Positions 40,830 through 44,521 of a stretch of DNA of 64,000 nt are shown here, piece by piece. Under the pieces are notes generated by a model, which did no database searches, was not told where the DNA came from, and saw nothing but the letters and a program-made list of their open reading frames with translations. The stretch is taken from positions 1 through 64,000 of the forward strand of contig JAGCUO010000152.1 of the NCBI GenBank assembly GCA_017962825.1, in the 5' to 3' direction. The DNA is from Lachnospiraceae bacterium. GTDB lineage: Bacteria; Bacillota; Clostridia; Lachnospirales; Lachnospiraceae. Both the position numbers and the translations under genes were made by a program. Position 1 is the first letter of the stretch. Every line of letters begins with the position of its first letter.

Positions 40830-41726
40830 TTAGTGGGAAGAAGTGGGGCAAAAAATAATATTTTTTAATTTTCCCTTGGATATCAAGATCCTGATGACGA
40901 TATCCGCAGCAAGGCTTCCAACGAACATTACAATGGCCAAAACCTGGGATACTGCAAGGGTCGTACCCGGGATAAACAACGTATCCGTGCGGATTCCCTC
41001 GATCCAGAACCTTCCCAGCCCGTACCCGCCGAGATACCAGAGAGCGACTTCTCCGACGAATTTCTTCTTAGGTTCAAACTTTACCATGAGCGCCACTATT
41101 GCAAGATTCCATAAACATTCATATAAGAAAGTAGGATGAACCTGTATGTAGTTCTGTCCTTCCGCCATATGAGCTCGGATGCTTTCCGAAATATCCTGAG
41201 GTCTTACTCTGGAAACCGGAAGTCTCATGGCAAAGAAGTTCTCGGTATATTCTCCGAATACTTCTCTATTAAAGAAGTTTCCCCATCTTCCGAATGCCTG
41301 CCCCAGTGCAAGACCGGGTACGGAATAATCCAAAAGCCTGAAGGGATTTATTTTCGTAACCTTACAATATATAAATACGGTTATGAATGCGGCTATCACG
41401 CCACCGTATATAGCAAGTCCGCCCTGTCTTAAATTGAAGACCTGAACAGGATTTGCTTTGTAGAAGTCCCAGGCAAAGATCACATAATAGATCCTGGCTC
41501 CAAGAACTCCGAATACTACTCCGTAGAAAAAGAAATCCCATATCTTCTCTTTATCCCATCCGCCCCTTTTGGCAAGATACGCGGCAAGGGTTCCGCCGGC
41601 AAACATACCGAGGACAACGCATATAGCGTAGAGCTTTATCTCCAGTCCGAATACGGAAAAACCTTCGGGAACATTGTGAAGATCTATTCCCATATTGGGA
41701 AAAGATATCTCATTTACATTCATCAT
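40830..41726 (-). CDS. lgt: Prolipoprotein diacylglyceryl transferase
   Basis: A 298-residue membrane enzyme that moves a diacylglyceryl group from phosphatidylglycerol to the lipobox Cys of prolipoproteins. About seven helices are present. Key blocks are RQGGLAIYGG, the signature GQAFGRWGNFFNREVFG, and HPTFLYECLWNL with GLGRFWIEGIRTD. The start overlaps the ychF stop by 4 bp. It would serve the lipoproteins seen elsewhere in the window. Confidence 0.97.
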   Translation of the reverse strand: MMNVNEISFPNMGIDLHNVPEGFSVFGLEIKLYAICVVLGMFAGGTLAAYLAKRGGWDKEKIWDFFFYGVVFGVLGARIYYVIFAWDFYKANPVQVFNLRQGGLAIYGGVIAAFITVFIYCKVTKINPFRLLDYSVPGLALGQAFGRWGNFFNREVFGEYTENFFAMRLPVSRVRPQDISESIRAHMAEGQNYIQVHPTFLYECLWNLAIVALMVKFEPKKKFVGEVALWYLGGYGLGRFWIEGIRTDTLFIPGTTLAVSQVLAIVMFVGSLAADIVIRILISKGKLKNIIFCPTSSH

Positions 41727-42820
41727 ACATTAAACCTGAACAGGATAACGTCTCCGTCCTGTACAACATATTCTTTACCCTCGATACGGACGATTCCTTT
41801 TTCCTTCGCTGCTGCGATGGAGCCGTTATCGAGAAGGTCCTGATAATTGATAACTTCTGCCTTAATGAATCCGCGCTCGAAATCGGTGTGGATCTTTCCT
41901 GCTGCCTGAGGAGCCTTGGTGCCCTTCTTAATGGTCCAAGCACGGCACTCGTCCTCTCCTGCGGTAAGGAAGCTCATAAGTCCGAGCAGGTCGTAGCTTG
42001 CTCTTACAAGCTTCTCAAGACCGGATTCCTTAAGTCCCATGGCTTCGAGGAATTCTTTCTTTTCAGCATCATCGAGTTCCGAAATCTCTTCCTCGGTTCT
42101 GGCTGATATTACGAATACCTCCGAACCTTCCTGAGCTGCAAACTCGCGAACCTTCTTTACGTTCTCGTTGTTAGCACCGTCATCAGCAAGGTCGCCGTCT
42201 TCAACATTGGCAGCATAGATAACGGGCTTATCGGTGAGGAGGTTAAACTCCTTGCGATACTTGATCTCATCCTCATCTTCGGTAACAAGAGTTCTGGCTG
42301 CATTATTGGCCTCAAGATGAACTTTGAATCTCTCAAGCAGGTCAAGTTCCTTGGCCGCTGTCTTATCCATTCTCGCGGTCTTGGCAGTCTTGGCGATACG
42401 CTTCTCTAGAACTTCAAGATCTGCAAAGACAAGCTCGAGATTAATGGTCTCGATATCTCTTATGGAATCAACGCTTCCGTCTACATGGATAACGTTATCA
42501 TCATCAAAGCATCTTACTACGTGAACGATTGCATCTACTTCACGTATGTTTGCGAGGAACTGGTTTCCGAGTCCCTCTCCCTTTGAAGCACCCTTTACGA
42601 GTCCTGCGATATCTACGAACTCGATGGTTGCGGGAGTTACCTTCTTGGTGTTGTAGAGCTTGCCGAGCTTCTCGATCCTCTCATCGGGAACTGCAACTAC
42701 GCCTACATTGGGATCAATGGTACAAAAGGGGAAGTTCGCAGCCTGCGCTCCTGCCTTTGTGATCGAATTGAAGAGTGTACTCTTTCCTACGTTGGGAAGA
42801 CCGACGATTCCTAATTTCAT
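41723..42820 (-). CDS. ychF: Redox-regulated ATPase YchF
   Basis: A 365-residue Obg-family protein that prefers ATP. The P-loop [12 protein letters not shown] is at residues 6-17, with [14 protein letters not shown] near 68. The coiled-coil insertion ([18 protein letters not shown]) and the C-terminal TGS-type domain ([36 protein letters not shown]) are typical. It interacts with ribosomes and proteasome-like partners in other organisms. It is followed by lgt with a 4-bp overlap. The region upstream is the 73-bp repeat array. Confidence 0.97.
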
Positions 42821-42966: not shown

Positions 42967-43006
42967 CTATAATCCGGCACTTTTTGAATTTAGTGCCGGA
43001 TTATAG
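42967..43006. repeat. Perfect 14-bp inverted repeat at the edge of the array
   Basis: CTATAATCCGGCAC (42967-42980) and GTGCCGGATTATAG (42993-43006) are exact complements with a 12-base AT-rich loop. The ends CTATAA/TTATAG match the ends of the 73-bp units, but the spacing to the first unit is not 73. Confidence 0.8.
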
Positions 43007-43050
43007 TATGTGGTGTTGTTCATTTTTTTGGGGGGATTTGCGGGGAAGGG

Positions 43051-43597
43051 CTATAAAAATGGAGTCTGAGGTGAGGTTTATAGCCCCGGAGCAAAGTTTA
43101 GCTGTGGTTTCAGGCGAAAGGGGCTATAATTCCGTGGAAACCAAATCTTTTTATAGCCCGGGAGTAAGGTTTAGCCGTGGTTTCGGGCGGACGGGGCTAT
43201 AATTCCGAGGAAACCAGATCTTTTTATAGCCCGGGAGCAGGTTTTGGCCATGGTTTCAGGCTATAGGGGCTATAATTCCGTGGAAACCAGATCTTTTTAT
43301 AGCCCGGGAGCAGGTTTTGGCCGTGGTTTCGGGCGGACGGGGCTATAATTCCGAAGGTTATCACGCCTTTTACAGTCCAAATGCTGGATTTCACAGCTTT
43401 ACTTGACCATGTGGACTGTAAATTTCAAACACCTCCAATCATTTACAGTCCAATTCCAAGATTTCGTCGCTTTACCGAACTGCGTGGACTGTAAATTTCA
43501 AGCAATCTCCGTCTTTTACAGCCCAAGTCCGGAATTTCACAGCTTTACACGACTGCGGGGACTGTAAATTTCAAATTCTCCACAATTCTTACAGTCC
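43051..43597. repeat. Array of 73-bp palindromic units in two sequence families
   Basis: Right arms (CTATAA or CTGTAA) begin at 43051, 43124, 43197, 43270, 43343, 43416, 43489 and 43562. Left arms (TATAGCC or TACAGYCC) begin at 43079, 43152, 43225, 43298, 43371, 43444, 43517 and 43590. Every interval is exactly 73 bp. The first units have stems GGGCTATAA/TTATAGCCC; the last ones GGACTGTAAA/TTTACAGTCC, so arms changed together. Family 1 also has TGGTTTC in the spacer and GGAAACCA in the loop, which could pair between parts of a unit. No open frame with protein character fits. The region 42821-43609 holds no gene. Confidence 0.92.
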
Positions 43598-43609
43598 GGT
43601 CGTCATATA

Positions 43610-44521
43610 TCACTCAATACCCACGATTCTGTAATCCGGAATCCCAAGCTTTCCGGCGGCTTCTTCAAAATATTCTTCCTTAATAAGCGGCCAGCCTTTA
43701 CTCTCACCGGCCACTTCGGAAAGTTTAGTCGCTAGTTCTACCATTGCCGCGGAATTATCAGTTCCCGTAAGAAGAATCTGTATATTACTGTTGATGAACC
43801 AGGGTGCTTTATCCAGCAAACCTGCAGAGATCATATCCTTTACAACCTTATGATTATCATAAGGAACTTTAAGAAATGTTGGCTTCCAGAAGACCACGCC
43901 ATTATCATCAACACAAGAATCCAGCATCATGCATTGAGCAAAGCCTGCATCGTTAATCGATATCCCCACACATCCCGAGTTCATGTACAGCTTCCCATGA
44001 TATTCATATTCACCCGGAAAGTGAGTATGCGCACAAAGCAGATAATCCTCAGAAATATTATCAAGCCAAAATCTTGCCCTGTCGCTTCCAAGCTGTATCA
44101 ATTCTCTGGAACTTTCCGGTGAACCGTGACAACATCTTATGGAAGGGTAACCTTCTTTCTCGTATACAAAAGAAATCGGAAGACTCTTAAAAAAATCAAA
44201 GTCCATATCAGTCAGCAACTCATAAGAGTACAAAAGATTACCGCTCGCAGAATTATATAACCACTTCTTATCTTCTATCCCCGACTCCAAATCTTCCTTT
44301 TGAGTGAGCATATATTCTTCTCTGTTACCCCTAAGCAGATGGCAGGTATGAGTCTCAATAAACTCATAGAGAAAATCCAAGGTTTCTCTTGTATAAGAAG
44401 TATCGGATACATAATCACCAAGAAATAAATACTCATCGCATCCTTCTGCTTCCAGAAGGTCTACGCATTCTCTGAAGGCTATGTAATTACTGTGGATATC
44501 GGATATTACGCCAATTCGCAT
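43610..44521 (-). CDS. Metallophosphoesterase
   Basis: A 303-residue calcineurin-like phosphoesterase. Metal motifs are GVISDIHSN at the N-terminus, FLGDYVSD near 33, GNREE near 70, CCHGSPES near 128 and AHTHFPGEY near 160. The fold matches the YfcE/ApaH-like group that cleaves phosphodiesters or dinucleotides. The C-terminal 90 residues extend beyond the core. It stands alone: the array lies downstream and the merR terminator upstream. Confidence 0.85.
   Translation of the reverse strand: MRIGVISDIHSNYIAFRECVDLLEAEGCDEYLFLGDYVSDTSYTRETLDFLYEFIETHTCHLLRGNREEYMLTQKEDLESGIEDKKWLYNSASGNLLYSYELLTDMDFDFFKSLPISFVYEKEGYPSIRCCHGSPESSRELIQLGSDRARFWLDNISEDYLLCAHTHFPGEYEYHGKLYMNSGCVGISINDAGFAQCMMLDSCVDDNGVVFWKPTFLKVPYDNHKVVKDMISAGLLDKAPWFINSNIQILLTGTDNSAAMVELATKLSEVAGESKGWPLIKEEYFEEAAGKLGIPDYRIVGIE

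Follow-up and report, generated by a model that had tools for sequence, protein, structure and literature searches.

Intergenic arrays of palindromes are known in many bacteria, and their purpose is disputed. Phased A/T tracts, for their part, bend DNA and favor its wrapping. In published accounts, REPs are stem-loops with a GTAG or CGTC tag (PMC3733652) and show a bias toward tandem and convergent gene pairs (PMC3733652; PMC1525189); BIME-2 elements are bound and cleaved by gyrase and act as transcription-independent strong gyrase sites (PMC6379681; PMC12393610, a preprint). The E. coli gyrase motif is presented there as symmetrical and 130 bp long, with a 36-bp center, two 47-bp wings and a 10.75-bp periodicity of GC (PMC6379681), and periodic A-tracts have been connected with nucleoid proteins that bridge DNA (PMC3940949).

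Here we describe an array of palindromes in a 64,000-nucleotide stretch of a Lachnospiraceae contig, hereafter the window, together with its relatives in other genomes. The window array belongs to a family of intergenic DNA arrays that are scattered through the genomes of some rumen and gut Lachnospiraceae. In the open literature searched on palindromic, tandem or intergenic repeats, helical phasing or phased A-tracts, we found no title or opening of an abstract that describes them.

The array in the window

Eight 37-bp palindromic repeats (8-bp arm-N21-8-bp arm), separated by 36-bp spacers, occupy positions 43049-43596 of the window. They lie between two ORFs that, on reading the sequence, we take to encode a ychF-like GTPase and a metallophosphoesterase-like protein.

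41723..42820, minus strand: left flanking ORF (presumably ychF-like), its start facing the array
43049..43085, no strand: repeat 1, family 1, GGCTATAA-N21-TTATAGCC
43122..43158, no strand: repeat 2, family 1
43195..43231, no strand: repeat 3, family 1
43268..43304, no strand: repeat 4, family 1
43341..43377, no strand: repeat 5, hybrid, left arm of family 1 (GGCTATAA), right arm of family 2 (TTACAGTC)
43414..43450, no strand: repeat 6, family 2, GACTGTAA-N21-TTACAGTC
43487..43523, no strand: repeat 7, family 2, right arm TTACAGCC
43560..43596, no strand: repeat 8, family 2, the last, with 13 bp between it and the 3' end of the phosphoesterase-like ORF
43086-43121, 43159-43194, 43232-43267, 43305-43340, 43378-43413, 43451-43486, 43524-43559: seven 36-bp spacers
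43610..44521, minus strand: right flanking ORF (presumably metallophosphoesterase-like), its 3' end facing the array

The preliminary description of this DNA had counted sixteen palindrome arms in two registers, each recurring every 73 bp, and the count is borne out as eight left and eight right arms. The left-arm 9-mers start at 43048, 43121, 43194, 43267, 43340, 43413, 43486 and 43559, and the right arms at 43077, 43150, 43223, 43296, 43369, 43442, 43515 and 43589, the last of these (repeat 8) being matched in a form one base shorter. Steps of 29 bp from left to right arm and of 44 bp from right arm to the next left arm sum to 73 bp with zero exceptions, and Tandem Repeats Finder returns two period-73 arrays, at 43077-43353 and 43368-43597.

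The two arm families that had been assigned to the two halves of the array are likewise real. First-half arms read GGGCTATAA/TTTATAGCC and second-half arms GGACTGTAA/TTTACAG(T/C)CC; as 8-bp arms, repeats 1-4 carry GGCTATAA/TTATAGCC and repeats 6-8 carry GACTGTAA/TTACAG(T/C)C. The switch sits within the repeat at 43341-43377, not between repeats. Because its left arm belongs to family 1 and its right arm to family 2, repeat 5 is not fully self-complementary. A suggested pairing between GGAAACCA in the loop and TGGTTTC in the spacer is complementary in the first half but is not general across arrays.

As had been stated at the outset, no gene lies in the array: zero coding-scored ORFs fall inside it. 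Neither a tRNA nor an Rfam match reaching the gathering score turned up in the window, and a terminator scan around the array found no terminator-like site in that region. A separate inverted repeat, CTATAATCCGGCAC/GTGCCGGATTATAG, with 14-bp arms and a 12-nt loop, lies at 42967-43006, between the array and the ychF-like ORF. An assembly artefact, which would have undermined the earlier account, is unlikely because an array of the same kind is flanked by the same two genes in another genome (loci L054 and L104).

A dispersed family and its gene setting

A search of relatives for the 73-bp unit, run with arm patterns, brought the total to at least 30 arrays in this genome and two relatives. The loose two-arm pattern matched 53 times per strand in the genome of the window (G000), 36 times in strain P6A3 (G012, which holds loci L046-L055) and 8 times in G028; the reversed control pattern gave 0, 1 and 1 matches, respectively. 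With 53 matches per strand against 0 reversed, the arm pattern of the window occurs far beyond chance. Among 56 other relatives, three had one match each and the remainder zero. Arrays were chosen from 50 of the 53 forward matches of G000 and 34 of the 36 of G012; 28 stretches around the matches listed, with the window, yielded a set of 30 arrays for study, drawn from three members of the genus. Most arrays thus described come from G000, G012 and G028, the last being a MAG; the assembly of the window's genome comprises 204 contigs and is 81% complete.

Arms in the family read GRCTRTAA or GGCTAATAA, and interiors are often unrelated. With exact 8-bp arms of a single type, 23 of the 30 arrays start with a left arm and finish with a right arm; several P6A3 arrays run on past the first arm type into the second. 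Lone repeats listed in G000 lie at C59:9760-9796, C63:16988-17025 and C87:9213-9249, the last of which forms a 12-bp stem and could be a hairpin of the ordinary kind. In several MAGs, chiefly RUG14112, arrays lie near contig ends (L064, L066, L082, L095, L083, L089); arrays of this kind may break short-read assemblies, and copy numbers in MAGs may accordingly be too low.

On a wider scale, a single genome was scanned for each species, which yielded 39 loci in 14 genomes, mostly Lachnospiraceae MAGs and strains P6A3, XBB2008 and RM5, the remaining ones being one Eubacterium, one Clostridiaceae MAG and one Thermoplasmata MAG. The archaeal locus and perhaps the Clostridiaceae locus may be chance matches, since we estimate that such a collection would give about half a match by chance. 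Arrays with these arms occur in 3 of 31 genomes of the genus, and the three-arm pattern was found in 0 of 298 other genomes of the family, sampled at about one per genus with G012 and G028 outside the sample.

All 30 arrays are intergenic. Scored by codon usage, the flanking ORFs form 25 tandem, 4 convergent and 1 divergent pair; a longest-ORF table gave 22, 6 and 2, disagreeing at some loci, and the codon-scored ORFs were used. The placement resembles that of BIMEs and REPs, mostly tandem or convergent. Array orientation assigned by EM, itself weak, agrees with that of the flanking tandem genes in 13 of 21 cases and disagrees in 8 (L057 has no orientation), and a preferred orientation was rejected. 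The flanking genes that were read include presumed ychF, pnp, iron transporter and RecD-like genes among others, and share no common theme.

Arm types, shared sites and the question of mobility

Across 29 labeled loci, arm types form contiguous blocks and are never interleaved; one repeat of L048 is unlabeled, and mixed repeats (for example, in L058) took the label of their left arm. Within a 37-bp repeat, both arms are usually of one type, the window being an exception. Fifteen arrays switch arm type (L058 omitted); the switch falls in a spacer in 13 of them and within a repeat in 2, the window and L038. All six two-block arrays on contig 1 of P6A3 run TAATAA then TATAA in the direction of the contig, and one array on contig 2, beyond the change in GC skew, runs the opposite way. 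A tie between block order and replication found no support: the relation to GC skew is opposite on contigs 1 and 2, with no consistent link.

Sites shared between species show how arm types and interiors have fared. L054, in P6A3, is the counterpart of the window array, lying between the same two flanking genes. It has four TAATAA-type repeats beside the phosphoesterase and four TATAA-type positions beside ychF, with one degenerate arm per block; the window has TGTAA-type and TATAA-type repeats where L054 has TAATAA-type and TATAA-type. The interiors of these two arrays are unrelated, with a best score of 0.45 against a mean of 0.454 (sd 0.072) for all 406 locus pairs. At the site shared by L036 and L049 the interiors are homologous (0.85; best pair with 100% identical core and 78% identical spacer), and the arms differ, TGTAA in one and TATAA in the other. 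Among 12 locus pairs that are possibly orthologous by their flanking genes, only L036-L049 is clearly homologous, the others scoring 0.44-0.67; pairs at different sites that score 0.69 to 0.76 also exist. Orthology of sites beyond ychF and pnp was judged by reading the flanking genes. Among the matches listed for P6A3, every GGCTRTAA arm is GGCTATAA and none is GGCTGTAA. The pnp site holds an array in G000, G012 and G028, a single repeat (GGCTAAAA-N21-TTTTAGCC) in G007 and no repeat in G016. We read this as old array sites whose content turns over fast and whose set of arm types is specific to the lineage. On these comparisons, a trans-acting reader would explain lineage-wide arm types, and homogenization within arrays would explain part of the pattern.

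Two further features of these loci deserve mention. The motifs CCTCAGAAA and CAACTGAGG, in either orientation, turn up in several arrays that otherwise differ (for example, L036, L045, L049, L050 and L055) and are possibly a second recognition motif or a mark of shared ancestry. Upstream of ychF in several members of the genus (L103, L106, L113, L119), the DNA reads, by a motif, like a presumed tyrosine recombinase gene; the region may be a hot spot for integration of mobile elements.

Could the arrays themselves be selfish mobile repeats? The 37-bp palindrome would then be the substrate of a transposase or recombinase that seeded the arrays, with the ruler set by the enzyme complex. Several observations are in keeping with this: the distribution is patchy among close relatives; single copies occur, both at the pnp site of G007 and as the lone repeats of G000, beside the empty pnp site of G016; related interiors are found at different sites (L033 with L049, L036 with L048, best scores 0.75); and REPs are regarded as selfish (PMC3733652). 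However, arrays stand at the ychF site in two species and at the pnp site in three, with flanking genes suggesting more such cases, and since array sites are shared between species the spread is not recent. The IS200-like (PF01797) genes that were read, two of three hits (L190 in G000 and L195 in G012), are flanked by a different palindrome, so that an IS200-like gene flanked by the same repeat, as in REP/RAYT systems, is not found at these two loci; G028 carries arrays with no PF01797 hit. A RAYT as the spreading enzyme was rejected on these grounds. Instead, these two genes lie between long GGGGACG...CGTCCCC palindromes, a second and unrelated extragenic family. Phage, plasmid or viral origin was likewise rejected, with zero matches to the pattern in a viral contig collection and zero blastn matches of the window array to phages and plasmids. 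We consider mobility unlikely as the explanation for the arrays, though less so than the structured RNA, functionless and operator readings considered below.

RNA versus DNA

A structured RNA had been among the first guesses. Transcribed arrays would form chains of arm hairpins that act as mRNA stabilizers, attenuators or an RNA scaffold. The arms are self-complementary in most repeats, and REPs, at similar positions, are in many cases believed to be transcribed (PMC3733652). The window array beats its shuffles in folding on both strands (z -4.6 and -4.3), but the strands show no preference, and both fold well because any palindrome array would. Similarly, a column analysis gave excess pairing of the bases flanking the left arm, but the excess disappears when pieces taken from separate arrays serve as the control: outside the arms, pieces of one array pair no better than these (z 0.3, -0.5 and -0.5), and compensatory changes there do not rise above the control. 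A hairpin enclosing the left arm was rejected as a general feature (z 0.3 and -0.5), its signal coming from a few arrays that share CCTCAG/CTGAGG.

The arms themselves point the same way. Left and right arms correspond at position 5 in 134 of 136 repeats, as they would also in a symmetric protein site, whereas of the 36 repeats that vary at position 2 only 4 show the matching change in the opposite arm and 32 are altered on one side alone. Together, these two positions suit half-sites read by a protein better than a stem. Six arrays contain both A.C and G.T combinations, one of which is a mismatch on either strand. A structured RNA also gives no reason for a fixed 73-bp unit with A/T at each turn of the DNA, and Rfam offers no match. 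We regard it as improbable, and the guess of a structured RNA is not upheld.

The 73-bp ruler and its helical phasing

Repeat, spacer and period each stay within one base pair of their usual length. Measured end to end, the repeat is 37 bp long in 178 of 189 cases (36 bp in 2, 38 bp in 9), the spacer is 36 bp in 129 of 139 (35 bp in 6, 37 bp in 4), and the period is 73 bp in 122 of 139 (72 in 8, 74 in 9). These counts come from 52 sources, with search windows of 30-44 bp for the repeat and 25-48 bp for the spacer; they omit 15 already represented P6A3 and RGIG8894 loci, one archaeal locus and units with unrecognized arms. With looser arms, the spacing of neighbors is 73 in 96 of 107 cases, 74 in 4 and 72 in 4, with 146, 220 and 221 once each. 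The second arm type of P6A3 is instructive in this regard: its arms are 9 bp long (GGCTAATAA/TTATTAGCC) and its middle 19 bp instead of 21, which leaves the outer 37 bp unchanged. At L044, units measure 74 bp through four steps, which means that not every array keeps exact phase from end to end.

Within this unit, A/T is distributed by the turn. With units aligned and strands averaged, A/T content is highest at the repeat center (0) and at distances from it of about 11 (the arms), 21-22 and 30-31 bp, with lows near 6, 17, 25-27 and 36 bp, giving seven peaks per 73 bp; outside the arms, the dinucleotides behind the phasing are mainly AA/TT. After masking of the arms, the best period in the range 6-20 bp is 10.6 bp for 28 arrays of G000, G012 and G028, and it is 10.5 bp in other genomes (16 of 23 loci, those with usable repeats); 0 of 2000 permutations reached either signal. 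AA/TT phasing at 10.2-10.8 bp exceeds that of the array's own dinucleotide shuffles in all 30 arrays (z 2.8-11.1, mean 7.0), and neighboring control segments reach z >2 in 1 of 30 (mean z -0.24). A tandem repeat of 73 bp will in any case gather its power at harmonics of 73, so harmonics were compared in the 27 arrays with usable exact 73-bp steps. For AA/TT the 7th harmonic (10.43 bp) exceeds the others in all 27 arrays and for A/T in 20 of them; with arms masked, it does so in only 13 of 27 and 14 of 27, respectively. Since the 7th harmonic dominates and the phasing with masked arms recurs in other genomes, 73 bp most likely represents seven turns of DNA.

These measurements bear on a functionless origin, in which tandem duplication and concerted evolution derive all arrays from one 73-bp unit whose length was simply inherited. 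Units within an array are usually alike (core identity of at least 55% in 105 of 139 adjacent pairs), and the shared site of L036 and L049 holds homologous arrays, as this origin would predict. But adjacent repeats with core identity below 55% (n=34) still keep a period of 73 in 27 cases, with 72 in 5 and 74 in 2, where drift would bring larger indels, and the helical phasing that persists with masked arms, and repeats in other genomes, is not accounted for. This origin is already disfavored and we think it quite improbable. The earlier suspicion of selection for phasing over slippage has thus held up, in the sense that selection, or a ruler, acts on spacing and phasing: length is kept despite unrelated middles, and A/T is helically phased. 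Least probable of all is an array of operators through which an ordinary transcription factor regulates downstream genes, for the inverted half-sites of 8-9 bp and the position of 25 of 30 arrays between tandem genes, hence upstream of one of them, would fit, but the flanking genes that were read have no common theme and several to eleven consecutive sites, with half-site starts 29 and 44 bp apart, would be unusual for an operator.

A bending or wrapping array as candidate function

Alongside the observed ruler, phasing, dispersal, tandem or convergent placement and blocks of arm types, we put at about even chances a reading at the level of DNA: arrays that bend or wrap, bound by a putative protein and placed after genes in the manner of BIME-2 or strong gyrase sites. 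Of the three guesses first made, a protein-binding scaffold is the best fit; a role of the 73-bp arrays as a recombination substrate is conceivable. The proposal of bending or wrapping draws on the bending of DNA by phased A/T, on the parallels with the gyrase motif and BIME-2, and on the link between A-tracts and nucleoid proteins.

In the proposed mechanism, each unit would comprise seven helical turns (73 bp), namely, a 37-bp repeat with inverted half-sites at its ends and a 36-bp spacer. A patch of AA/TT at every turn would make the DNA helically phased, such that it should curve or wrap a protein easily. We infer that a protein reads the GGCT..AA half-sites, the phased A/T pattern or both, and wraps the array; the conserved half-sites would set the position of the wrapping protein. 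The most plausible role for such an assembly may be to retain or relieve supercoiling where transcription units end. Arrays probably expand and contract by unequal recombination of the 73-bp unit.

Gyrase is the leading named candidate for the wrapping protein, although a tentative one, and a nucleoid or site-specific protein is the alternative. Gyrase is possible but leaves the arms and the narrow distribution unexplained. Because gyrase is universal, and the arrays occur in so few genomes of the genus and in none of the 298 others sampled across the family, a lineage-specific factor would suit better. Were a trans-acting protein to alter its specificity, with its sites following suit, a lineage-wide switch of half-site would be expected, as suggested by TGTAA against TAATAA in the corresponding block at the same site. 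Rather speculatively, then, the 73-bp unit could be a single seven-turn wrap, and arrays of several to eleven units after genes could act as topological insulators in a chromatin-like element whose anchoring half-sites have been switched between lineages across many loci.

The broader interest lies in a spacing kept within one base pair across unrelated sequences, strains and species, and equal to seven turns with A/T patches. The arrays offer a natural test of wrapped or bent DNA against RNA hairpins and allow one to ask which protein reads them. Their blocks of types, and the change of type between species, provide a record of dispersed DNA sites changing together.

Comparison with known systems

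By the features compared, the 73-bp array is not a tagged REP, a NIME or a CRISPR. Like REPs and BIME-2, which in some families also form arrays, it consists of intergenic palindromic units, mostly between tandem or convergent genes. However, 8-9 bp are conserved at each end, the middle is largely free, and a strict 73-bp ruler and A/T phasing are added; the GTAG/CGTC end tag is absent from the 30 arrays read, in which arms are GGCT..AA and the middle 19-21 bp largely unconserved.

NIMEs (dRS3 with RS) are likewise intergenic arrays of short elements with terminal inverted repeats, variable middles and sequence between them. Their dRS3 is ATTCCC-N8-GGGAAT, of 20 bp, with RS of 30-160 bp, whereas the arrays here have other arms, a 37-bp repeat and a fixed 36-bp spacer. 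CRISPRs, too, alternate palindromic repeats with spacers of equal length. But in place of invariant repeats and unrelated spacers, the arrays read here have repeat middles that vary and spacers that are often near-identical within an array, and one genome has many such loci.

With the gyrase motif and the Mu strong gyrase site, compared by period and size only, the arrays share an alternation of A/T and G/C about once per turn and a 36-bp element with periodic stretches on either side. The motif itself spans 130 bp and is degenerate; as we read its description, fixed half-sites and tandem 73-bp repetition do not figure in it. Finally, the arrays resemble phased A-tract DNA in carrying AA/TT steps in helical phase: in all 30, these steps recur every 10-11 bp above chance. 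To that phasing they add a palindromic unit, conserved arms and a fixed ruler.
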